Source: Solea solea (taxonomy: Eukaryota > Chordata > Actinopteri > Pleuronectiformes > Soleidae). From it: a stretch of 64,000 nucleotides of DNA. The notes below the pieces were generated by a model. That model was not told where the DNA came from. It worked only from the letters and a program-made list of their open reading frames with translations, and made no database searches. The DNA lies in NCBI RefSeq assembly GCF_958295425.1, contig NC_081144.1, positions 2,212,501 to 2,276,500 of the forward strand. Reading direction: 5' to 3'. The position numbers and the translations under genes were made by a program. Below, piece after piece: positions 43,990-64,000 of the stretch; positions within the stretch are counted from its first letter, which is position 1, and every line of letters begins with the position of its first letter.

Positions 43990-45509
43990 ACGAAAAAGGA
44001 CAACAAATGGAACGGGCGAATGCAGCAGGTCCATACCGAGAGAAATTGAATGCGAAAATAAATGCGCGGTATTTGCAGAAGATAGGGGTGAAAGGGCTAG
44101 ACCCATGAACACTCGGAGTGGACTTCTGATGTGAAGGTCCTGCCGAACTGTCAACATGGACAAATCGATAATTACATGATTTTAGGTGTGAGTGCCTACA
44201 CCCATGAGGTCTTCAGCAATATCACATTGCTACAGCAGGCCCAGGTTCAGTTCACCGATGGATGGGTGCAGGACCTGGACATTTTTAAAGTGGAGCAGAA
44301 AGTCACTGTGCGTTCACAGGTAAGGTTTCTGCACACACCTCTCTATCAGCATGTACTCGACAGAACAACCTAATTTCCTAACAAACACATCATGCATAAA
44401 GTTAATGTAAAATGAGGGCAGATTTTTCCTCTTACTGAATGTCATTCCCAGTCAAACACTGTTGTTTTTGCTGCTGATGTGTTAAGCACTCTGCCTACTG
44501 TCTGCAGTGGTGACTTGCTGGAACGTTGATGTTAATGTCCTTTCTTATCCAGAAAACTAGTTACTTGTTACGATGAATGTTACTTGAGTAGCTGTAAAAT
44601 AACATTTTAAAAATTACCCCAAGCAAAAGTTGAAATGGCTCAGATGAACAGTACAGCAGTGAAATCACTGTGGTATTTATGTAATTGTAAAACGCTTAGG
44701 TGAATCACTCCATGTGGCTTACCCATGCAGCACGGACGGGAAGAATAACCGCCTCAAACATCCATGCTGTTGTGTACACCAGCATAGACAAGCCAGCCAT
44801 TTCAGTAGTTAAGGTGTGCTATCCTCAAAAAAGCATACGCAGACCTACAGAAAACAAACCAGAGGACATTAAATGAGGGAGAGACCACAAAGCCACAGCA
44901 AGGGCTTCATACATCACACAGGCTGTGTAGAGATGAAGTGCCCCTACAAGCACCGCAACAACAACATCCTGCAGGCCTGTGCAGACAAAGACCTTTGTCT
45001 GCAGTTGACTGATAGTAAACTGGAGTTGAAGCCCGCACACAGGTATTACAAACAGGTGCAGACACAAATCTTTGTGACTCTGTGACTTTGTGGTGTGGGC
45101 AATGAAAAGCTGTGTCATAGGGTGTGTCACACTTGATGCCAGCCTTTGGGCAACATTTTTGCCAAAAGACACAGACTTTTTTCCACAAGGTCGTGCTACC
45201 AGAGCTTGTCGCCGTCACTACACCAAATACCCACGAGTCGAACCCTCCTCGGATCTACAGCCCACACGCAAACCCCAAAAAAGAGCATGACGGCCTTTAG
45301 CCATATTACATCCAGTTCGCAAGCGCAAAACACAGGCATATGAAAACACTGATGTGTGGTGCACCTGTAGACAAGAGGAGTTGGATGACATGGTTGCTTG
45401 TGATAACCAGAACTGTGCCATTCAGTGGTTCCATTTAGGATGTGTAGGACTCGGTTCTGCACCTGCCCAAGAGCAGCCATGGCTGTGTGACACATGTACA
45501 CTGGGTTGA
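43990..45509 (+). pseudogene. Relic of a YqaJ-nuclease / PHD-finger gene
   Basis: The pieces appear in order on the plus strand. (1) About 44,005-44,319: REKLNAKINARYLQK and GLDP, then after a frameshift EWTSDVKVLPN, YMILGVSAYTHEVFSN and TDGWVQDLDIF, ending at a clean CAG|GTAAGG splice donor. (2) About 44,924-45,085: CVEMKCPYKHRNNN and HRYYKQVQTQIFVT. This is the core of a YqaJ/lambda-exonuclease-type PD-(D/E)XK domain with the ExK pair and the Y..Q.Q motif. A shift follows before CDFVVW. (3) 45,351-45,509: a PHD finger with all zinc ligands (CTC, CDNQNC, FHLGC, CDTC), then TGA. Frame changes and stops between the pieces show it is broken. Fish genomes carry multi-copy genes of this build; whether they are mobile is not shown here. 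Confidence 0.65.
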
Positions 45510-45556
45510 AACAATTTCCTCCCAGGGATTAATAAAGTATTCTGATTCTAATTCTT
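45510..45556 (+). mobile_element. LINE 3'-tail fragment
   Basis: AATTTCCTCCCAGGGATTAA followed by TAAAGTATTCTGATTCTAAT is the typical 3' end of a fish L2/CR1-like element (GGGATTAATAAAGTAT). It immediately follows the PHD relic. Confidence 0.6.

Positions 45557-49183: not shown

Positions 49184-49187
<4 letters not shown>

Positions 49188-49228
<41 letters not shown>
49188..49228. repeat. (GT)n microsatellite
   Basis: About 20 uninterrupted GT units. Confidence 0.93.
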
Positions 49229-49229
<1 letters not shown>

Positions 49230-49439
49230 ACTTACATTTCTTACTTCATGGGGTCCCACCGCAGGGAGCACACCAACCGCGGGGGGCCCACAACCGGTAT
49301 GGGGCCCTAAATGGTGGGCCCCACACCGGTTTTCATTCAAAATGAGCTTTGCAGCCCCCCCTGATGCCCCTCTTGCTTTTTTTTCACTTGGCCCACAAGG
49401 TCAGAAAAACTGGAAATGTGTGTGTAAGTGTGTGTAAAC

Positions 49440-49587
49440 TTTTTGCTCACTACCGCCCCCCGGAGCTTGTAAGGTGGAAGGTACGGACACACACACACCG
49501 GAAGTTTGTTTACACACTTCAGGAAGTGGGTAGGGTTTTAACAAGAAGAAGAGGAAGATCAAGCTCAAGATCGACAGCATGCAACAG
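49440..49587 (+). promoter_or_regulatory. Candidate promoter and 5' UTR exon of the SET-recombinase gene
   Basis: A GC-richer patch (CCGCCCCCCGGAGC) is followed by a CACACACCGGAAG block containing an ETS-like CCGGAAG. It then runs to a good splice donor, CAACAG|GTAGGT, at 49,587/49,588. The only ATG before the donor (ATGCAACAG) would enter the next exon out of frame with the SET reading frame, so I read this as non-coding leader. The link to the exon at 50,562 is inference. Confidence 0.35.
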
Positions 49588-49644
49588 GTAGGTGTGAATT
49601 TGTTGGATTTATATCGTTTATATCTTAGTTATGTTAATTAATTT

Positions 49645-49912
49645 ATTACAGTAACTGTTAGCTGCTACTGTAAACTAGTTGTGTTTAGCTGCTGGCGTAA
49701 GCTATATAATACGCGTGCTAACATTAGCAGCTCGCGATTTTCTTTTACAGATTATTACAATAACTGTTTGCTGCTACCGTTAGCTACTCGCGGTTAGCTG
49801 CTAACTTAGCGATATAATGGGCGAGCTAACATTAGCGCTAACGTTAGCGATCGCTAGCTGCTAACATTAGCAGTTAGCGATCGCTAGCTGCTAACATTAG
49901 CAGCTAGCGATC
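49645..49912. repeat. Tandem and palindromic GCTAAC/GTTAGC repeats
   Basis: Two diverged copies of a roughly 100-bp unit (about 49,645-49,738 and 49,750-49,838) both run from ATTACARTAACTG to GCTAACATTAGC. They are followed by 27-bp units (GCTAGCTGCTAACATTAGCA plus GTTAGCGATC) at 49,840-49,912. Each unit is itself largely self-complementary. It sits in the presumed first intron of the downstream gene. Confidence 0.75.
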
Positions 49913-50561
49913 TTTTTAAGACAATTATATAAGACAAATTATATAAGGCACAAAGTCTAATAGTCTAGAAATGTATAAATATAAATGAAATTATAAATCT
50001 ATAAATTTGGTCTAGCCTTTCGTCTAAGTTTATAAAAAAATACCCATCTTTACATGCTACTATAATGAAATTAAACTGTATATCAACTCCCTAAAATTGA
50101 AAATGAAATCCAAAAGTGCTTAAGAGCTTTATAAATTAACTCTTTAACTAATTAAGTGACCTCTTTTTTTATCTTTGCTTAAATTAGATAATTAATATCA
50201 TTATTAATTCAAATTAAACATGGGAAAAGTGACCTGAAATTACATCTTTTGAAGTTTTTTGATAAATGAAATTAACTTGACATTCAGTATGGGAAAATAA
50301 TGATGTTATTGATCTAATTAAAGCAAAGCTATTTCATTTTTACACACAAACAAACGCATAATCACACACACCTATAACCTGATAGAGAGAGAAGAGGACA
50401 ACATGCCATAAACCCAGGGGAAACACTACTGTTTGTTTTCAATAATTGTTTTATGTATATCAGCAGTTAGCAATCTAGGCAACTCATGACAATATAAACT
50501 TGACTCACTGAACAAATCTCTTATATCGTATGTGTAGTAATAATTAAAAATATTTTCACAG
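49913..50561 (+). other. AT-rich presumed intron sequence
   Basis: AT-rich sequence between the candidate leader exon and the first SET coding exon. No ORF or repeat recognised. Confidence 0.4.
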
Positions 50562-50568
50562 AGCCATT

Positions 50569-51249
50569 ATGTCCAAAAGGAGGAGAAGGATAAAGCCTGT
50601 AGATGATGCAAAGACATATATTCTGTCTTGCACTGACAAGTCTGGATTTATGTCAAGACTCATAGACAGTTTCAAAGGTAAGTTGTAGAAGGTTCCTTGA
50701 CAGAACTTGTGCATTTCAAAAGCAAATGAATCGTTTTCTTTGTTATATTCTTCTAGGAAGAGGAGTGTTTGCTACGCAGCCCATTGAACCAGGGGACTTT
50801 GTTTTGGAGTACAGGGGTAGACTCCTCACACAGGAAGAATGCCGGTCACTACCGTACTCAGAGATTGACTCCACATTTCTCTTTGACTTTGAGTGGCAGA
50901 ACCGTCACTTGTGGTGAGCATGTAAAGAGATGTTTTTTATAGATTAGAGAAATTAACCTTGAACCCTGAAATAAACTTTTAATAGTTAATGATTGAACTA
51001 AAGCACGAGTACTAAAATTATGTCTTCCAACAAAACTGATTTCTTGTACTTTTCAGCCTTGATGCATCTGAAGAAGATGGATCTCTTGGAAGATTAGTCA
51101 ATGACAACCACAAAAATCCAAATTGTGTCATGAGAAAAATCATAGTAAACAACAAGCCGCACTTGTGCCTTTTTGCCCTGAAGAAAATAGAGATAGGATC
51201 TGAAATTGACTACAGCTATGGTGATGCAAAATGGCCTTGGCGCAGTATG
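50569..51249 (+). CDS. KMT5A-like SET domain (three exons)
   Basis: Exons 50569-50677, 50757-50913 and 51057-51249 join with phases 1 and 2 into 153 residues. A basic start (MSKRRRRIKP) leads to a SET core: GRGVFATQPIEPGDFVLEYR (residues 37-56), then LGRLVNDNHKNPNC (99-112), PHLCLFALKKIEIG (123-136) and IDYSYGD (139-145). This matches KMT5A/SET8, the histone H4 Lys20 monomethyltransferase, block by block. The Tyr of the YxYG motif is present. In KMT5A the SAM-pocket motif is RLINH; here it is RLVND, so the His is replaced by Asp. There is no post-SET cysteine cluster, as in KMT5A. The next exon (51441) follows in phase 0. Confidence 0.82.
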
Positions 51250-54200
51250 GTGAGTTGGTTAGATTCAGCATGAATATTTTTTTTGACAAATGAGTGTGTA
51301 AAAATGTGCCATCTTGTAAAAGCAAATTTTGTCCAATATTGTTTCCCATATGAGTTTATCTATGGGAATGCATGTGATCTTTGATCTGTGTGATATGATT
51401 TAACATCAGTTTGTTTGATTCTTGTTTAATTGAAATCCAGGTGAAGACTCCTGCAGCAACAGAGACAGAGACCAGCCCTCTACCTCAGATGTTCCACATG
51501 GAATCAAAGCCAGATGAGACTAACGCACAGGTAAAATGACATTGTAGACGCATCCATCACCAATATCTGTGGTGACTTGTATGAAGCTGTTCTACTTTCA
51601 AATGGGCCAATGTACACATTGTCAGATTTCCTTTTTGGGTGGTGTGATAATGGCCAGTTAATGTCCCACACACACGCATGTTTCCAGTCATGTCCTTATG
51701 GGGCCTTTTATGTCACAAACACACTTGTTCTCTTGTCTCTCCTCGATGAGACCAGGTAACATACTGTAACACACCACTCGTATGTTTCTAGTCTCACCCA
51801 TGTGGGGCCCTTCCGTGTGGTTCTCACTCAAACTGTTCCTATGGCACTGTCCAGAACCTGGCATAATCTCAAGTTTGATTTTAACATTTGTAATTGCACA
51901 CTGTCTGAGCTGTTATGAGTTTGAAAGCAAACTTTACAATGTGACCCACTGCAAATCCTTATCATAGGTTGTGAGAGGTGCCTACTACTTTTAGAAAGAC
52001 TATGTTGTGCTCTCAGTTTGACGGTCTGTGCTGTTTCAGAAACAGTTTAACCATTAGGTAACCTTATTAGCCTGTAAATGTCTCCACATACAGTTGTGAT
52101 TTCTGTCAGTTCTAATTGTCTTCTTGTCTGCTATCTAAATTTCAGGTGAAAGACCCTCAGACTCCTGCAGCAGCAGAGACAGAGACCAACCCTCTACCTC
52201 AGATGTTCCACATGGAATCAAAGCCAGATGAGACTAACGCACAGGTAAAATGACATTGTAGATGCATCCATCACCAATATCTGTGGTGACTTGTATGAAG
52301 CTGTTCTACTTTCAAAATGGGCCAATGTTCACATTTTCAGAAGTACTTTTTGGGTGGTGTGATAATGGCCAGTTAATGTCACACACACACACACGCATGT
52401 TTCCAGTCATGTCCTTATGGGGCCTTTTATGTCACAAACACACTTGTTCTCTCGTCTCTCCTCGATGAGACCAGGTAACATACTGTAACACACCACTCGT
52501 ATGTTTCTAGTCTCACCCATGTGGGGCCCTTCCGTGTGGTTCTCACTCAAACTGTTCCTATGGCACTGTCCAGAACCTGACATAATCTCAAGTTCAATTT
52601 TAACATTTGTAATTGCACACGGTCTGGGCTGTTATGAGTTTGAAAGCAAACTTTACAATGTGACCCACTGCAAATCCTTATCATAGGTTGTGAGAGGTGC
52701 CTACTTCTTTTAGAAAGACTATGTTGTGCTCTCAGTTTGACGGTCTGTGCTGTTTCAGAAACAGTTTAACCATTAGGTAACCTTATTAGCCTGTAAATGT
52801 CTCCACATACAGTTGTGATTTCTGTCAGTTCTAATTGTCTTCTTGTCTGCTATCTAAATTTCAGGTGAAAGACCCTCAGACTCCTGCAGCAGCAGAGACA
52901 GAGACCAACCCTCTACCTCAGATGTTCCACATGGAATCAAAGCCAGATGAGACTAACGCACAGGTAAAATGACATTGTAGATGCATCCATCACCAATATC
53001 TGTGGTGACTTGTATGAAGCTGTTCTACTTTCAAAATGGGCCAATGTTCACATTGTCAGAATTACTTTTTGGGTGGTGTGATAATGGCCAGTTAATGTCA
53101 CACACACACACGCATGTTTCCAGTCATGTCCTTATGGGGCCTTTTATGTCACAAACACACTTGTTCTCTCGTCTCTCCTCGATGAGACCAGGTAACATAC
53201 TGTAACACACCACTCGTATGTTTCTAGTCTCACCCATGTGGGGCCCTTCCGTGTGGTTCTCACTCAAACTGTTCCTATGGCACTGTCCAGAACCTGACAT
53301 AATCTCAAGTTTGATTTTAACATTTGTAATTGCACACTGTCTGAGCTGTTATGAGTTTGAAAGCAAACTTTACAATGTGACCCACTGCAAATCCTTATCA
53401 TAGGTTATGAGAGGTGCCTACTACTTTTAGAAAGACTATGTTGTGCTCTCAGTTTGACGGTCTGTGCTGTTTCAGAAACAGTTTAACCATTAGGTAACCG
53501 TATTAGCCTGTAAATGTCTCCACATACAGTTGTGATTTCTGTCAGTTCTAATTGTCTTCTTGTCTGCTATCTAAATTTCAGGTGAAAGACCCTCAGACTC
53601 CTGCAGCAGCAGAGACAGAGACCAACCCTCTACCTCAGATGTTCCACATGGAATCAAAGCCAGATGAGACTAACGCACAGGTAAAATGACATTGTAGATG
53701 CATCCATCACCAATATCTGTGGTGACTTGTATGAAGCTGTTCTACTTTCAAATGGGCCAATGTTCACATTGTCAGAAGTACTTTTTGGGTGGTGTGATAA
53801 TGGCCAGTTAATGTCACACACACACACGCATGTTTCCAGTCATGTCCTTATGGGGCCTTTTATGTCACAAACACACTTGTTCTCTTGTCTCTCCTCGATG
53901 AGACCAGGTAACATACTGTAACACACCACTCGTATGTTTCTAGTCTCACCCATGTGGGGCCCTTCCGTGTGGTTCTCACTCAAACTGTTCCTATGGCACT
54001 GTCCAGAACCTGACATAATCTCAAGTTTGATTTTAACATTTGTAATTGCACACTGTCTGAGCTGTTATGAGTTTGAAAACAAACTTTACAATGTGACCCA
54101 CTGCAAATCCTTATCATAGGTTATGAGAGGTGCCTACTACTTTTAGAAAGACTATGTTGTGCTCTCAGTTTGACGGTCTGTGCTTTCAGAAACAGTTTAA

Positions 54201-57200
54201 CCATTAGGTAACCTTATTAGCCTGTAAATGTCTCCACATACAGTTGTGATTTCTGTCAGTTCTAATTGTCTTCTTGTCTGCTATCTAAATTTCAGGTGAA
54301 AGACCCTCAGACTCCTGCAGCAGCAGAGACAGAGACCAACCCTCTACCTCAGATGTTCCACATGGAATCAAAGCCAGATGAGACTAACGCACAGGTAAAA
54401 TGACATTGTAGATGCATCCATCACCAATATCTGTGGTGACTTGTATGAAGCTGTTCTACTTTCAAAATGGGCCAATGTTCACATTGTCAGAATTACTTTT
54501 TGGGTGGTGTGATAATGGCCAGTTAATGTCACACACACACACGCATGTTTCCAGTCATGTCCTTATGGGGCCTTTTATGTCACAAACACACTTGTTCTCT
54601 CGTCTCTCCTCGATGAGACCAGGTAACATACTGTAACACACCACTCGTATGTTTCTAGTCTCACCCATGTGGGGCCCTTCCGTGTGGTTCTCACTCAAAC
54701 TGTTCCTATGGCACTGTCCAGAACCTGGCATAATCTCAAGTTTGATTTTAACATTTGTAATTGCACACTGTCTGAGCTGTTATGAGTTTGAAAGCAAACT
54801 TTACAATGTGACCCAATGCAAATCCTTATCATAGGTTGTGAGAGGTGCCTACTTCTTTTAGAAAGACTATGTTGTGCTCTCAGTTTGACGGTCTGTGCTT
54901 TCAGAAACAGTTTTACCATTAGGTAACCTTATTAGCCTGTAAATGTCTCCACATACAGTTGTGATTTCTGTCAGTTCTAATTGTCTTCTTGTCTGCTATC
55001 TAAATTTCAGGTGAAAGACCCTCAGACTCCTGCAGCAGCAGAGACAGAGACCAACCCTCTACCTCAGATGTTCCACATGGAATCAAAGCCAGATGAGACT
55101 AACGCACAGGTAAAATGACATTGTAGATGCATCCATCACCAATATCTGTGGTGACTTGTATGAAGCTGTTCTACTTTCAAATGGGCCAATGTTCACATTG
55201 TCAGAAGTACTTTTTGGGTGGTGTGATAATGGCCAGTTAATGTCACACACACACACGCATGTTTCCAGTCATGTCCTTATGGGGCCTTTTATGTCACAAA
55301 CACACTTCTTCTCTTGTCTCTCCTCGATGAGACCAGGTAACATACTGTAACACACCACTCGTATGTTTCTAGTCTCACCCATGTGGGGCCCTTCCGTGTG
55401 GTTCTCACTCAAACTGTTCCTATGGCACTGTCCAGAACCTGACATAATCTCAAGTTTGATTTTAACATTTGTAATTGCACACTGTCTGAGCTGTTATGAG
55501 TTTGAAAGCAAACTTTACAATGTGACCCACTGCAAATCCTTATCATAGGTTATGAGAGGTGCCTACTTCTTTTAGAAAGACTATGTTGTGCTCTCTACTA
55601 TGTTGTGTTTGACGGTCTGTGCCGTTTCAGAAACAGTTTTACCATTAGGTAACCTTATTAGCCTGTAAATGTCTCCACATACGGTTGTGATTTCTGTCAG
55701 TTCTAATTGTCTTCTTGTCTGCTATCTAAATTTCAGGTGAAAGACCCTCAGACTCCTGCAGCAGCAGAGACAGAGACCAACCCTCTACCTCAGATGTTCC
55801 ACATGGAATCAAAGCCAGATGAGACTAACGCACAGGTAAAATGACATTGTAGATGCATCCATCACCAATATCTGTGGTGACTTGTATGAAGCTGTTCTAC
55901 TTTCAAAATGGGCCAATGTTCACATTGTCAGAATTACTTTTTGGGTGGTGTGATAATGGCCAGTTAATGTCACACACACACGCATGTTTCCAGTCATGTC
56001 CTTATGGGGCCTTTTATGTCACAAACACACTTGTTCTCTTGTCTCTCCTCGATGAGACCAGGTAACATACTGTAACACACCACTCGTATGTTTCTAGTCT
56101 CACCCATGTGGGGCCCTTCCGTGTGGTTCTCACTCAAACTGTTCCTATGGCACTGTCCAGAACCTGGCATAATCTCAAGTTTGATTTTAACATTTGTAAT
56201 TGCACACTGTCTGAGCTGTTATGAGTTTGAAAGCAAACTTTACAATGTGACCCACTGCAAATCCTTATCATAGGTTGTGAGAGGTGCCTACTACTTTTAG
56301 AAAGACTATGTTGTGCTCTCAGTTTGACGGTCTGTGCTTTCAGAAACAGTTTAACCATTAGGTAACCTTATTAGCCTGTAAATGTCTCCACATACAGTTG
56401 TGATTTCTGTCAGTTCTAATTGTCTTCTTGTCTGCTATCTAAATTTCAGGTGAAAGACCCTCAGACTCCTGCAGCAGCAGAGACAGAGACCAACCCTCTA
56501 CCTCAGATGTTCCACATGGAATCAAAGCCAGATGAGACTAACGCACAGGTAAAATGACATTGTAGATGCATCCATCACCAATATCTGTGGTGACTTGTAT
56601 GAAGCTGTTCTACTTTCAAAATGGGCCAATGTTCACATTGTCAGAAGTACTTTTTGGGTGGTGTGATAATGGCCAGTTAATGTCACACACACACACGCAT
56701 GTTTCCAGTCATGTCCTTATGGGGCCTTTTATGTCACAAACACACTTCTTCTCTTGTCTCTCCTCGATGAGACCAGGTAACATACTGTAACACACCACTC
56801 GTATGTTTCTAGTCTCACCCATGTGGGGCCCTTCCGTGTGGTTCTCACTCAAACTGTTCCTATGGCACTGTCCAGAACCTGACATAATCTCAAGTTTGAT
56901 TTTAACATTTGTAATTGCACACTGTCTGAGCTGTTATGAGTTTGAAAGCAAACTTTACAATGTGACCCACTGCAAATCCTTATCATAGGTTATGAGAGGT
57001 GCCTACTTCTTTTAGAAAGACTATGTTGTGCTCTCTACTATGTTGTGTTTGACGGTCTGTGCCGTTTCAGAAACAGTTTTACCATTAGGTAACCTTATTA
57101 GCCTGTAAATGTCTCCACATACGGTTGTGATTTCTGTCAGTTCTAATTGTCTTCTTGTCTGCTATCTAAATTTCAGGTGAAAGACCCTCAGACTCCTGCA

Positions 57201-60200
57201 GCAGCAGAGACAGAGACCAACCCTCTACCTCAGATGTTCCACATGGAATCAAAGCCAGATGAGACTAACGCACAGGTAAAATGACATTGTAGATGCATCC
57301 ATCACCAATATCTGTGGTGACTTGTATGAAGCTGTTCTACTTTCAAATGGGCCAATGTTCACATTGTCAGAAGTACTTTTTGGGTGGTGTGATAATGGCC
57401 AGTTAATGTCACACACACACACGCATGTTTCCAGTCATGTCCTTATGGGGCCTTTTATGTCACAAACACACTTGTTCTCTTGTCTCTCCTCGATGAGACC
57501 AGGTAACATACTGTAACACACCACTCGTATGTTTCTAGTCTCACCCATGTGGGGCCCTTCCGTGTGGTTCTCACTCAAACTGTTCCTATGGCACTGTCCA
57601 GAACCTGACATAATCTCAAGTTTGATTTTAACATTTGTAATTGCACACTGTCTGAGCTGTTATGAGTTTGAAAGCAAACTTTACAATGTGACCCACTGCA
57701 AATCCTTATCATAGGTTGTGAGAGGTGCCTACTACTTTTAGAAAGACTATGTTGTGCTCTCAGTTTGACGGTCTGTGCTTTCAGAAACAGTTTAACCATT
57801 AGGTAACCTTATTAGCCTGTAAATGTCTCCACATACAGTTGTGATTTCTGTCAGTTCTAATTGTCTTCTTGTCTGCTATCTAAATTTCAGGTGAAAGACC
57901 CTCAGACTCCTGCAGCAGCAGAGACAGAGACCAACCCTCTACCTCAGATGTTCCACATGGAATCAAAGCCAGATGAGACTAACGCACAGGTAAAATGACA
58001 TTGTAGACGCATCCATCACCAATATCTGTGGTGACTTGTATGAAGCTGTTCTACTTTCAAAATGGGCCAATGTTCACATTTTCAGAAGTACTTTTTGGGT
58101 GGTGTGATAATGGCCAGTTAATGTCACACACACACACGCATGTTTCCAGTCATGTCCTTATGGGGCCTTTTATGTCACAAACACACTTGTTCTCTCGTCT
58201 CTCCTCGATGAGACCAGGTAACATACTGTAACACACCACTCGTATGTTTCTAGTCTCACCCATGTGGGGCCCTTCCGTGTGGTTCTCACTCAAACTGTTC
58301 CTATGGCACTGTCCAGAACCTGACATAATCTCAAGTTTGATTTTAACATTTGTAATTGCACACTGTCTGAGCTGTTATGAGTTTGAAAGCAAACTTTACA
58401 ATGTGACCCACTGCAAATCCTTATCATAGGTTATGAGAGGTGCCTACTTCTTTTAGAAAGACTATGTTGTGCTCTCAGTTTGAAGGTCTGTGCCGTTTCA
58501 GAAACAGTTTTACCATTAGGTAACCTTATTAGCCTGTAAATGTCTCCACATACGGTTGTGATTTCTGTCAGTTCTAATTGTCTTCTTGTCTGCTATCTAA
58601 ATTTCAGGTGAAAGACCCTCAGACTCCTGCAGCAGCAGAGACAGAGACCAACCCTCTACCTCAGATGTTCCACATGGAATCAAAGCCAGATGAGACTAAC
58701 GCACAGGTAAAATGACATTGTAGATGCATCCATCACCAATATCTGTGGTGACTTGTATGAAGCTGTTCTACTTTCAAAATGGGCCAATGTTCACATTGTC
58801 AGAATTACTTTTTGGGTGGTGTGATAATGGCCAGTTAATGTCACACACACACGCATGTTTCCAGTCATGTCCTTATGGGGCCTTTTATGTCACAAACACA
58901 CTTGTTCTCTCGTCTCTCCTCGATGAGACCAGGTAACATACTGTAACACACCACTCGTATGTTTCTAGTCTCACCCATGTGGGGCCCTTCCGTGTGGTTC
59001 TCACTCAAACTGTTCCTATGGCACTGTCCAGAACCTGGCATAATCTCAAGTTTGATTTTAACATTTGTAATTGCACACTGTCTGAGCTGTTATGAGTTTG
59101 AAAGCAAACTTTACAATGTGACCCACTGCAAATCCTTATCATAGGTTATGAGAGGTGCCTACTACTTTTAGAAAGACTATGTTGTGCTCTCAGTTTGACG
59201 GTCTGTGCTGTTTCAGAAACAGTTTAACCATTAGGTAACCTTATTAGCCTGTAAATGTCTCCACATACAGTTGTAATTTCTGTCAGTTCTAATTGTCTTC
59301 TTGTCTGCTATCTAAATTTCAGGTGAAAGACCCTCAGACTCCTGCAGCAGCAGAGACAGAGACCAACCCTCTACCTCAGATGTTCCACATGGAATCAAAG
59401 CCAGATGAGACTAACGCACAGGTAAAATGACATTGTAGACGCATCCATCACCAATATCTGCGGTGACTTGTATGAAGCTGTTATACTTCCACTGTCTACT
59501 GGGCCACTGTTTACATTTCTTTACTGTATTTAGCTTTTTGGTCAGATCATGTCATGATCAAAACTACTTAACAATCCTAAAATCGTAGGTTAATAATCGC
59601 GATATGGCCTTTTATTAATACAGCGATATTTTTAGACCATGTCACGATACACGATATATATCTCGATATTTTGCCTTAGCCTTAAGTTGAAACCAAACCA
59701 CCACCAGACGATGGATCCTGTGCTGTTTTTCTTCGGAATTAATTCGTCCTCCTCTGCTGGGCAAGGGCGTGTGAAGTTGCACGTATCAGACTGACGTATG
59801 TAACTAGGTGCGTTTGTTTTGTCTGTCTGTGAGAGGGAGAGACGAGAAAGCATTTGAGAGTCAGCGGCTAAAAGCAAATGCGTCACAACACTCGAGTTTC
59901 ATGATATAGTCATTTTCTACATCGCACAGACAACAAGCCGCGATATATCGAGTATATTCAATATATCGAGTATATTCAATATATCAAGTATATTCGATAT
60001 ATCGCCCAGCCCTACTTGACATACTTTTTTTTTTTTTTTGCAGATGGACAGTGGACCAGAGGTTTCTCGTCATTCGTGCGATTCAGATGAAACTGTTCTG
60101 AAAGAAACCTGTGATGAGGCTTCTCCAAACAACCATTCCAGAGAGCAATCAGATGATGAACTTCCACCTCTGAGACGCACAAAAAGCATTATGGTAAGCT

Positions 60201-63200
60201 CCTAAAATCTATTTAAAACAATATGAGTACATAGCTGATGGGCACTTTTCCCTGCAGTTTGTTTTTCTATCGTGTCAACAAAAAGGGAAAATCATATCTC
60301 CATGTTTTCCCTTTGCAGATGGATCGACTACAAGATTTTGCTGGCTGTCTCTACGATTCAAGTGATGACAGCACAGAGGGCACTTTGATTTCTAAGCCTG
60401 AAAGGGATTCACAGAGGCTGAGAAGAAGCTCTCGCCATCCTGTAAGTCTTTAATTGATTCTTGTATTTGTATCATTTTGAGGCTTTATTGTGTGTATATA
60501 TGACATATTCAAATTGTTTCAAGGTTTTAATGAGGGAGGGGCACAATTTAGATTTCACCAGCTATAGGCAATATTTGCTTTTTCTCACAACTGTATGCAC
60601 AATGGTGTAGTACCGGGGCTTGGACTTTATGTACTCTAACCGGGTCGGATCGGGCCTTAATTTTCATGTCCGTTGATACTCTAACCCGTGCAATACATGC
60701 AATATGATCGTGTCTGACTGGAAACGCTGGCAGAACCAATGTTAACGGTCAGACAGACCTCCTGGTTCTTTTCATTTAAAGTAAATGAAAATGGCAATAC
60801 CTAGTTTTTAGTAAAAGTTTTAGTCTAACATTAATTAGCAGTATGTCTTTCTATTTCTTTACACTTACTTGAACTTAAAATACTCAGTATAGAAGGCTCC
60901 ATAGAGAATTTATCTTCACGCTGTATGCATATACAATTAAAGTGTACTCAGATTGTTTACACTTAATATGTTACAAAATGAGTTACATTTTTTTTTCTTT
61001 CTTTAAAGATTCAGATGCCTCTTGTGGAATCAGATAACTCTAACATTGGCAGTGAAGATGAGTACATTCCATGTCCCAAGGACGAAAGCACAGAAAGTGA
61101 TAGCAGTTTGGAATTAACCCTGGAAAATAAAAAAAGGAACAAAGGTGCATCTAGTGAGAGCAGAAGAAAGTCTTCCAGTCGGAGCAAGTTTAAGCCCAGG
61201 GAGAGTGGAAGTGAGTCCTCCAAGCAGAAAAGAAGCAGGTCTTCCAGTCAGAGCCAGCTTGATTTTAGCCAGAAGAGACCCTTTAAAACAGGTCATGACC
61301 CCACACAAATATTTCCAAATAGCAGAGTTGATGGTAATGAAAAGAAAATAGTTGCAACATATTCTAAAAAGGATGTGAGTGTTTCAATGCCCCTGGAAGA
61401 AGAGCAGTCTATGTATGTCAATCCAGTTTTAAAGAAGATGGATGGGTCTAGAAGCTACAACAAAAAACATTTCTGCTTTTATTGCAGAAAGTTTGTCCAG
61501 AAAATGTCAAGGCACTTGTGGCGTAAACACCAAGATGAAACAGATGTTGCAAAAGCATTCAGTTTGCCAAAGAACTCAAAAGAAAGGAAACTGCAGTTGG
61601 ACTACATACGAAATAAGGGCAACTTTGAGCACAATAGTGAGGTTTTGGAGACACAGAAAGGCAAACTCATCCCATGGAAGCAACCACAGAAAAAATCTGA
61701 AGGACAGGAATTTGCACATTGTATTCACTGCTATGGTTTGTTCTCAAGAAGAGCAATGTGGCGGCATTTTCAGGTTTGCAACTTCAAACCCGAGAGTAGT
61801 AAACCCGGTAAAACTCGTGTTCTTTCTTTGTGTGCTTTCGCTGAACCTGCTCCACCTGGATTTAATGATGCTTATTGGAAGTTCTTAAGTGTTATGAATC
61901 AAGACAGGATTGCAGTTGCTATTAAAGAAGACCGCTGTATTCTTGAATATGGTTACAGACTGTTCAGGAAGAACGAGAAGGTGGTCAGTCAACACCAGTA
62001 TATTCGGCAAAAACTGAGAGAGCTTGGCAGGCTGTTATTGAAAGCAAGACAAGTTACACATGTGAAGACCATCCAAGAACTCATAAAACCTGAACAGTAC
62101 AGTCAGGTGGTCACTACTGCAAAGAGCCTATCTGGATTCAGTGAGCAAACTGGCAAATACCAATGTCCGTCTCTTGCTCGCAAGGTTGGACACAGCTTGT
62201 ATTCTTTGGCCATGTTTATCAAGTCCGAAGGCCTGAAAAAGAAAGATAAACAAGCTACTCAAGATGCTGAGGAGTTTGCGCTGCTTTATCAAGAAAGTTG
62301 GAGATTTGACATTGCAAGCCAAGCATTAACTCAACTTGACCAGACCAAATGGAATGCTCCTCTACTGTTACCTTTCACACAAGATATTCAAAAGTTTCAT
62401 TGTCATCTAGCTGAGAAACAGCAGCAACATTTGAATGATCTGCAAAAACACCCATCACCATCAAACTGGAAGGAGCTTGCAAAAGTTACCCTCACACAAG
62501 TTGTACTGTTTAACCGGCGGAGAGGAGGGGAAGTGTCCAGGATGCTTCTGTCTGCGTATCTATCAAAGGACACATCAGACACACATGGTGACGTTAGCTT
62601 GGCCCTTACACCGCTTGAACAGAAGCTGTGCAAACATTTTGTAAGGATTACAATTGTAGGAAAGAGAGGAAGAAAGGTTCCAGTTCTTTTAACCCCAATC
62701 ATGAGAGAGTCACTTGATGCTCTGACTGAGAAGAGAGAAGAATGTGGAGTGCTGTCTGAAAATGGATATCTGTTTGCATTACCTCACTCTGTCCATTACA
62801 TAAGGGCTTGTGACTGCATAAGGCAGTTTGTGAAAGAATGTGATCACCTTGAAAATCCTAAAGCCTTAACATCAACAAGACTAAGGAAACATATCGCCAC
62901 CCTCTCTACTGTATTGAACCTTAAGACCACAGAACTCGATCAGTTGGCAGACTTCCTTGGCCATAATATTGCTGTGCACCGAAAGCACTACCGCCTTCCG
63001 GAGGGCACCCTCCAGTTGGCCAAAATCAGCAAAGTGCTTCTGGCAATGGAACAGGGACGCCTAGGAGAATACAAAGGAAAGAGCCTGGATGAAATTCAAG
63101 TTGACGTGAATGGTACTAAGACTTATTATATTTTAAAGGTGCAATATATGATATTTAGTCTTCAGCATTCAGTAAGTGACTTAAACTGGATTTTTTAAGT

Positions 63201-64000
63201 AATTGAATTGTATGCAGGTAATTTGCAAGTTTAAAATCATATCCTCCTCTGTAAGACCATACATATGCAAAAATGCGTGTCAAACTTAGACATGCACACA
63301 CAAACTGTATTTTTTTTCTGCTCTTGATTGCCAGATTGCCCACAGTCTCAGCTTTCCAACTCAATAATACTATATCAATTAATATTTTAGAGACCATTGG
63401 CATAGAGGGGCCTTCAGAAGAGGACATTGAAGGTATGTGATGAATGTTTTTAAATTTGTCATGGAGATTTATGAGCTTTGCATTTGTATTTTATTTTCAG
63501 GTTTCCCTGATTCACTATTTCCTGACATTATGTGAAGGCAAGGATACAAAATATAGTACATTGTCTCGGGGGTGCAAGTCTGGTTCAGCAAGACAGGGGT
63601 CTGGGATTGAAATCTACTCTATGATGCACTGTATTGTCAAAGTATAGTAGTAATATTACATTTCTCTGCCAGGAGAACAGGGGTCAGAAGATGAGGAGAG
63701 CATGTCATCCCTGAACATCTGTACCTCAACATCACAAGTCCAAAACCAGGGAGTGTCTCCAACGGGTGAGCTTGAACAATGAAAGAAGATTGATCTTGAA
63801 CACTCCTCTTTAAAGACCCCCTCCGATGAAAATTGTGTTTTTCATGTTGTTTATGTGGCATTTCTCTGATGCTACAGGACATATCAGCAGAAAAGTAAGT
63901 GTGACATTTTATTTCTGAGTATTTCTGCCTTCAAATTGCAGTGAACTAAAGGCAGACGCAAACTGGCAGTACAGATTGTAAAGCCCTCCAAGGCAAAATG
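50569..64000 (+). CDS. SET-domain / repeat-exon / zinc-finger / tyrosine-recombinase fusion gene (spliced, runs off the right edge)
   Basis: Gene-level entry. Coding exons by my model: 50569-50677, 50757-50913, 51057-51249, 51441-51530, eleven 99-nt exons (first 52146-52244, last 59323-59421), 60044-60193, 60319-60441, 61009-63112, 63391-63432, 63673-63765, 63878-63894. All junctions are GT-AG. Phases agree (1, 2, then 0 through the array, then 1), giving 4,167 nt or 1,389 codons inside the window. Order: SET domain (residues 1-153), 30- and 33-residue repeats (154-546), acidic/Ser linkers (547 to about 790), two zinc-finger-like motifs, tyrosine-recombinase core. The start is ATG 50,569, seven bases into its exon. 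Fish genomes hold many KMT5A-like SET genes and separate multi-copy recombinase-like genes; I infer this is a mobile-element gene or one domesticated from it. Splicing of the whole chain into one mRNA is unproven. Confidence 0.7.
51441..51530 (+). CDS. First, diverged copy of the repeated exon (30 aa)
   Basis: A 90-nt phase-0 exon reading VKTPAATETETSPLPQ then MFHMESKPDETNAQ. It matches the eleven 99-nt copies but lacks 9 nt near its start (three codons) and has a few substitutions. Its upstream intron does not resemble the array introns while its downstream intron does, so the array begins here. It is the probable ancestral copy. Confidence 0.8.
52146..59421 (+). CDS. Eleven identical 99-nt repeat exons (33 aa each)
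   Basis: Every copy is flanked by CTAAATTTCAG and GTAAAATGAC and encodes VKDPQTPAAAETETNPLPQ then MFHMESKPDETNAQ. I see no nucleotide difference between the eleven exons. All are phase 0 at both ends, so any number can be included or skipped without breaking the frame. The peptide is Pro/Glu/Thr-rich with no cysteines, probably disordered, and would add 363 residues between the SET domain and the recombinase part. The function of the linker is unknown. Confidence 0.8.
59560..60014. mobile_element. hAT-like MITE in the intron after the array
   Basis: The right end ATATATCGCCCAGCCCTA is the inverse of the TAGGGCTGGGCGATAT terminus of a very common teleost MITE. The interior has characteristic GCGATAT, CACGATACACGATATATATC and TCGATATATC-type words, plus a small tandem GAGTATATTCAATATATC repeat at about 59,948-59,990. 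The left boundary is approximate. A T17 tract and the next acceptor follow directly. Confidence 0.6.
60044..60441 (+). CDS. Two acidic/Ser-rich linker exons of the fusion gene
   Basis: Exon 60044-60193 (50 aa) starts MDSGPEVSRHSCDSDE and ends LPPLRRTKSIM. Exon 60319-60441 (41 aa) starts MDRLQDFAGCLYDSSDDS and ends RLRRSSRHP. Both are phase 0 with clean CAG acceptors and GTAAGC/GTAAGT donors. The composition (Asp/Glu/Ser with basic clusters) suggests a disordered nuclear linker. Each begins with ATG right after the acceptor, so internal starts cannot be excluded. Confidence 0.75.
61009..63112 (+). CDS. Zinc-finger and tyrosine-recombinase exon
   Basis: A single 2.1-kb exon. The acceptor is AAAG at 61,008 or CAG at 61,014, both phase 0. 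Numbering from MPLVES at 61,015: residues 1-130 are Ser/Lys/Glu-rich. A C2H2-like finger follows (C154, C157, H167, H172) and a C2HC-like one (C236, C239, H251, C255). The C-terminal part carries a tyrosine-recombinase core: Arg I in RRRGGEVSRM (R503), beta-hairpin Lys in GKRGRKVPV (K550), Arg II in TRLRKHIAT (R624), LGH (H650) and Tyr 659 in HRKHYRLP, exactly nine residues after that His as in phage integrases. The usual His of H-x-x-R is Thr 621. The ORF stays open to 63,198, but the donor AATG|GTACTA at 63,112 fits the phase of the next exon. Confidence 0.85.
63391..63894 (+). CDS. Three small 3' exons of the fusion gene
   Basis: 63391-63432 (42 nt; TIGIEGPSEEDIE), 63673-63765 (93 nt; EQGSEDEESMSSLN onward) and a 17-nt micro-exon 63878-63894 (GHISRK). 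The first two are phase 1 at both ends, and the micro-exon brings the frame to phase 0. Acceptors TTTTAG, CTGCCAG and CTACAG pair with donors GTATGT, GTGAGC and GTAAGT. The next good acceptor (TTGCAG at 63,941) would place TGA directly after GHISRK; a weaker one at 63,955 stays open to the edge. So the protein either ends here or continues beyond the window. Confidence 0.6.

Follow-up and report, generated by a model that had tools for sequence, protein, structure and literature searches.

A probable Crypton-like DNA transposon of Solea solea whose gene joins a KMT5A-like SET domain to a predicted tyrosine recombinase

Cryptons are DNA transposons that encode a tyrosine recombinase (YR) with an R-H-R-Y catalytic set and for which a circular intermediate has been proposed (PMC3212892). 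Some CryptonV families have been reported to insert in microsatellites, in a work whose title names cnidarians (Kapitonov & Jurka 2012, as referred to in PMC8869645). SET genes have also been reported from transposons, namely the HarbingerS and MuDR elements of the oomycete Phytophthora (Kojima & Jurka 2014, cited in PMC12730594), and in the primate protein SETMAR a SET domain is joined to a transposon enzyme, in this case an inactive transposase (PMC8704517). Finally, 65 genes of Hydractinia and 61 of sea urchin have been described with a KMT5A-like SET domain that is mostly N-terminal, and the longer of these genes have similar C-terminal ends in both animals. The authors took them for novel methyltransferases, possibly representing an ancient way of controlling H4K20 in the embryo (PMC10368294); a term search of the main text of that paper found neither the word recombinase nor the word integrase.

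The locus described here lies in a stretch of 64,000 nucleotides of the sole genome (C30:2,212,501-2,276,500), called the window in what follows. It contains one of nine copies of a repeated sequence found on nine contigs of the 642-Mb genome, the eight others being 97.9 to 99.97% identical to the window copy over the matched stretches. Homology between the copies starts at CACTTACATTTC... (49,229) and stops at ...CACCAGTA (65,802, which is 1.8 kb past the window), and complete copies measure 14.5 to 18.0 kb. T/G tracts, in one orientation, adjoin the left end in nine of nine copies and the right end in all eight that could be read, the ninth right end being masked by a run of N. Since TG or CA runs of at least 16 bp account for just 1.4% of the flanking DNA examined, chance would hardly yield T/G tracts at all readable ends. 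When 3 kb on each side were compared, different copies had in common only pieces of 45 to 163 bp, in four copies (C29, C36, C39 and C40); these pieces are short dispersed repeats and not TG tracts, and none was present in all copies. Both ends of the element carry TG, and within a TG repeat its core is indistinguishable from the target. The features are given below in window coordinates.

49,185 to 49,228, + strand: (TG)n microsatellite, the target tract at the left end; a T/G tract is found here in all nine copies, with differing sequence outside
49,229 to 64,000, + strand: part of the mobile element within the window, bounded by the start and stop of copy homology; whole element 49,229 to 65,802
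49,229 to 49,335, + strand: left end, CACTTACATTTCTTACTTCATGGGG..., with three subterminal GGGGCC-type motifs (49,283; 49,301; 49,316)
49,364 to 49,587, + strand: 5' leader exon, 97% identical to residues 1-75 of P0002; either untranslated or, according to NCBI models, an N-terminal extension
50,562 to 50,677, + strand: SET exon 1, start ATG at 50,569 (MSKRRRRIK)
50,757 to 50,913, + strand: SET exon 2, from protein mapping
51,057 to 51,249, + strand: SET exon 3, with the motifs RLVNDNHKNPNC and EIDYSYG
51,441 to 51,530, + strand: linker exon 1 (90 nt)
52,146 to 59,421, + strand: linker array of eleven exons, each of exactly 99 nt, spaced 713-727 bp
60,044 to 60,193, + strand: exon linking the linker to the acidic region
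60,319 to 60,441, + strand: acidic/serine-rich exon
61,009 to 63,112, + strand: large exon with Ser/Arg-rich region, zinc-finger-like motifs, core-binding region and YR catalytic domain
63,391 to 63,432, + strand: C-terminal exon 1
63,673 to 63,765, + strand: C-terminal exon 2
64,110 to 64,223 and 64,664 to 64,875: later C-terminal exons, beyond the window

A splice search with GT-AG sites gave 18 stop-free exons from 50,569 to 63,112, in total 1,338 codons (or 1,337 if SET exon 2 is given its alternative end). Each of the 17 joins uses GT-AG sites and keeps the frame, which stayed open to 1,383 codons when the first two C-terminal exons were added. The encoded order is SET domain, 12 linker exons, two zinc-finger-like motifs (C156-C159-H169-H174 and C238-C241-H253-C257, large-exon numbering), YR core and C-terminal tail. 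An earlier note on this DNA had proposed such an in-frame chain, with a repeat array, two zinc-finger-like motifs and an integrase-type core behind the SET domain, as a unit from 50,569 to 63,894. The chain, its parts and their order are borne out here, but the extent is not, as the element spans 49,229 to 65,802 and the C-terminal exons continue past the window up to a final exon (64,664-64,875) whose borders were read by eye. Proteins of Solea senegalensis mapped onto the locus gave the same exons and further C-terminal ones, the last ending at 64,875. The gene models P0001 to P0007 of that species have the same order, apart from the SET part that is missing in P0001, and reach about 99% identity in the YR exon.

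The linker had been called expandable, and its length indeed depends on the copy: exact-motif counts, including the C36 copy, were 8, 9, 9, 10, 11, 11, 12, 12 and 13 linker exons. The YR exon is complete and open in eight of the nine copies and is disrupted by a one-base gap in the C27 copy. This gap aside, the exons of the copies are 98.7-100% identical to those of the window (in the C36 copy, the last one is cut by N), which indicates that the spread was recent. Variable sites amounted to 12 in the YR exon of eight copies and to 0-3 per exon in five others, too few for dN/dS. Near position 65,100 in window numbering, six copies contain a segment of about 0.78 kb, enclosed by a 108-bp direct repeat, that is absent from the window and C29 copies. 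An 18-bp tandem repeat (ATATATCGAGTATATTCA) at 59,943-60,004, in the last linker intron, has the look of a nested insertion. Upstream of the element, at 45,345-45,510 on the + strand, a reading frame in which a PHD-finger-like arrangement of Cys and His was identified by eye ends in a stop.

Terminal inverted repeats were not detected; the left and right ends had in common only stretches of 10-20 bp, consisting of CA or GC-rich sequence. GGGGCC-type motifs also occur at the right end, where they span 65,513-65,782 in window numbering, and the eleven linker introns (51,531-59,322) contain two each, 22 in total, spanning 51,700-58,987. Outside the linker, seven such motifs were counted against 1.2 expected, six of them subterminal; the motif was picked after the ends had been viewed and the excess is therefore descriptive. 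These motifs may be binding sites, which could be the reason why the repeated linker unit includes an intron.

The window's YR exon matched neither a YR model nor DUF3504 in a Pfam scan, and weak matches such as the Monooxy_af470-like one fell under the cut-off and were rejected. A Pfam scan of 31 members likewise showed no YR model among the 25 families listed of 45, and a PDB sequence search with the exon gave just six weak matches to unrelated proteins. The integrase similarity that had been suggested for this exon was found by fold: when folds were ranked, the structure model came out similar to XerH, Cre, lambda Int and TopIB. The catalytic residues R505, K552, R626, H652 and Y661 (large-exon numbering) are conserved. 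At the position of the H expected in HxxR, T is present in 247 of 260 rows, with R505, R626, H652 and Y661 retained. By its modelled fold and the conserved R, K, R, H and Y, the encoded protein is thus a predicted tyrosine recombinase.

Like Cryptons, the sole element is a DNA element with a tyrosine recombinase in which neither reverse transcriptase nor terminal inverted repeats were found and for which a circle can be proposed (PMC3212892). Unlike Cryptons, it is about 16 kb long and intron-rich, has a SET domain and a repeat-exon linker, and its YR exon is without a Pfam YR or DUF3504 match. The DIRS/Ngaro type, which combines a reverse transcriptase with a YR, does not describe it: the SET-YR gene stands alone among open reading frames of 80 or more amino acids, as all seven further ones were without a Pfam match and no reverse transcriptase or other transposition enzyme was seen among them. 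An Rfam scan of 48-64 kb gave no match. With CryptonV the element shares the combination of a YR and insertion at microsatellites, here T/G tracts at nine of nine left and eight of eight readable right ends; CryptonV is, however, reported from cnidarians and was compared with the sole element by description, not by sequence. HarbingerS and the oomycete MuDR elements resemble it in carrying a gene for a SET histone methyltransferase but belong to other, non-YR superfamilies and to an oomycete host. SETMAR resembles it in the joining of SET to a transposon enzyme, whereas the sole element is mobile, present in multiple copies and takes its SET domain along (PMC8704517).

The earlier note knew of no described family with this domain order. 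For the SET-YR fusion this holds among the literature matches listed, which included no SET-YR element; in wider terms it does not, as microsatellite-targeting CryptonV and SET-carrying Harbinger and MuDR elements are already in print according to the sources cited (PMC8869645, PMC12730594). What is new, within the literature searched, is the fusion. The reported insertion of some CryptonV families in microsatellites (PMC8869645) could nevertheless mean that the element, SET included, is an already catalogued Repbase CryptonV family. We regard this as unlikely, although as a real prospect, given that the CryptonV report concerns cnidarians and that no SET-bearing YR element was among the literature matches listed.

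The sole genome contains at least 61 YR places (66 YR rows less five second pieces; nine of 71 SET rows were dropped likewise). In 27 of these, including 18 of the 52 divergent ones, a SET domain lies on the same strand at most 16 kb upstream, and one pair is arranged otherwise. The 27 pairs involve 25 SET places, two of which each serve two YR places. Twenty of the 61 YR places fall within a 2.8-Mb stretch of C36 (21.2-24.0 Mb). On C71 and C165, thirteen YR places are 39% identical to that of the window, with no SET found upstream; twelve of them share one contig, most having an open frame of 785 codons, and by sequence they may represent an amplified lineage that is SET-less or whose SET was missed. 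A degraded relative at C1:26,058,701-26,060,821 consists of pieces 77-94% identical, some with stops, and is perhaps like P0020 of S. senegalensis.

The presence of a KMT5A-like SET domain, also part of the earlier proposal, was confirmed. P0002 matches Pfam SET with E=2.8e-18, and the nearest solved relative of the domain is KMT5A (E=1.4e-18, compared to 8.2e-10 for EZH2). KMT5A is an H4K20 monomethylase. H4K20 methylation as by KMT5A is our first guess for the role of the domain, a tentative one with odds below even. KMT5A, also known as SETD8, is a short protein with a C-terminal SET domain (PMC10368294), whereas the domain is N-terminal in the element's protein of more than 1,383 codons. 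Alternatively, the SET domain may no longer be an enzyme and may serve only as a histone- or protein-binding module. The NHS of KMT5A is replaced by NDNH in the window's SET, and the recombinase alone may suffice, as no SET was found upstream of 34 of the 61 YR places. On the other hand, the motif Asn and both Tyr residues are retained in 98-100% of 58 proteins, and we consider the loss of enzymatic function unlikely.

Protein searches listed 120 of 249 and 120 of 250 matches, and the named rows were all fishes. Both domains were present in 106 of the 260 homologues fetched, and the SET domain came first in 106 of 106 when the domain starts were compared, so that the search in relatives returned the order claimed for the sole locus; in an envelope-based test of the 58 two-domain proteins, out of 63, that passed a length cut, SET preceded YR in 54. 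That SET and recombinase are two separate genes inside one element, joined only by gene prediction, could be argued from the lack of a SET match in 154 of the 260 proteins, though for many of them the model is a single exon predicted from a short contig. The SET-first order of domain starts in 106 of 106, together with a frame and GT-AG sites that hold across all 17 joins, makes such a separation very improbable.

The view that a YR element was domesticated into a host gene, which segmental duplication then spread, is hardly credible and was rejected, despite the long intact frames, the complete open YR exon in eight of nine copies and the listing of the element's gene as ordinary genes in public databases, since nine copies lie on nine contigs, their homology stops at TG tracts with differing flanks, their linker counts (8-13) are copy-specific and one genome holds many divergent families. 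Domesticated Crypton genes such as KCTD1, ZMYM and QRICH1 moreover occupy a single conserved locus and contain DUF3504, whereas nine dispersed copies were found here and the window's YR exon gave no DUF3504 match. Between the two options left by the earlier note, a SET-carrying tyrosine-recombinase element or a domesticated host gene, the former is strongly supported by the dispersed near-identical copies, their sharp ends, the one type of target and the YR fold, and the latter is not supported.

We therefore attribute the nine sequences, with a probability of roughly 0.85, to recent copies of a Crypton-like DNA transposon with a single intron-rich SET-YR gene, moving by the following mechanism. 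One transcript would span the whole gene. In analogy to Cryptons (PMC3212892), the recombinase would bind both ends of the element and cut at a short TG-containing core, and the excised element would form a circle and integrate into another TG repeat. End recognition would be aided by the zinc-finger-like motifs and possibly by the subterminal GGGGCC-type motifs. More speculatively, the SET domain might methylate either histones or the recombinase, at the element or its target, and such methylation might maintain the element's capacity for expression or tie its movement to S phase.

Several observations bear on the history of the two domains. Among 29 non-redundant proteins, retained from the 58 two-domain proteins after dropping rows with YR identity of at least 93%, SET and YR distances correlated with r=0.79, a value reached in none of 5000 permutations (best 0.30). 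Four larger clades, compared by reading, recur in both quick trees, with P0096 and P0117 shifting. Domain order, correlated distances and recurring clades together indicate that SET and YR have mostly travelled together. The linker contained tandem repeats in 16 of the 29 proteins, which makes an expandable linker a recurrent feature; its unit sequences differ among clades by reading, and six of the 29 had no linker between the domain borders. In the trees, a Carassius and a pupfish protein form a group with support 100, adjacent to those of sole and wrasse. A gene model of the frog Pseudophryne corroboree (P0190), which has no SET match, is 80.5% identical over 681 amino acids to a piranha protein, whereas divergent YR places within one sole are 33-56% identical to that of the window, except for one degraded copy at 77-94%. 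The order of hosts in the trees also departs from fish phylogeny. Judged from these sequences, both features suggest horizontal transfer between hosts. A search for non-fish relatives via the short conserved tail yielded one frog and no invertebrate among the named rows of the best 120 of 393 matches, and of 107 stretches of viral contigs that fit a search pattern none encodes a relative.

The Hydractinia and sea urchin genes resemble this gene in comprising dozens of members, most with an N-terminal KMT5A-like SET domain, and differ in that their authors read them as methyltransferases and not as transposons; the likeness is one of description, not of sequence (PMC10368294). With a confidence just short of even, we propose that SET-YR transposons form an old, animal-wide lineage moving between hosts, that most of the 'KMT5A-like' genes of Hydractinia and sea urchin are copies of it, that the element writes its own H4K20 mark for expression or for jumping at genome activation or S phase, and that the exon array tunes the distance between writer and recombinase.

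If the reading of the sole element as a SET-YR transposon is right, a vertebrate transposon would combine a histone-marking enzyme and a recombinase in one polypeptide, and the shaping of chromatin by a mobile element for its own movement would become directly testable. Many fish gene models with a SET domain or the name KMT5A would then be pieces of transposons, and a TG-targeted recombinase would be on offer. For the two invertebrates, there would be a checkable alternative to the reading of these genes as expanded H4K20 methyltransferases.
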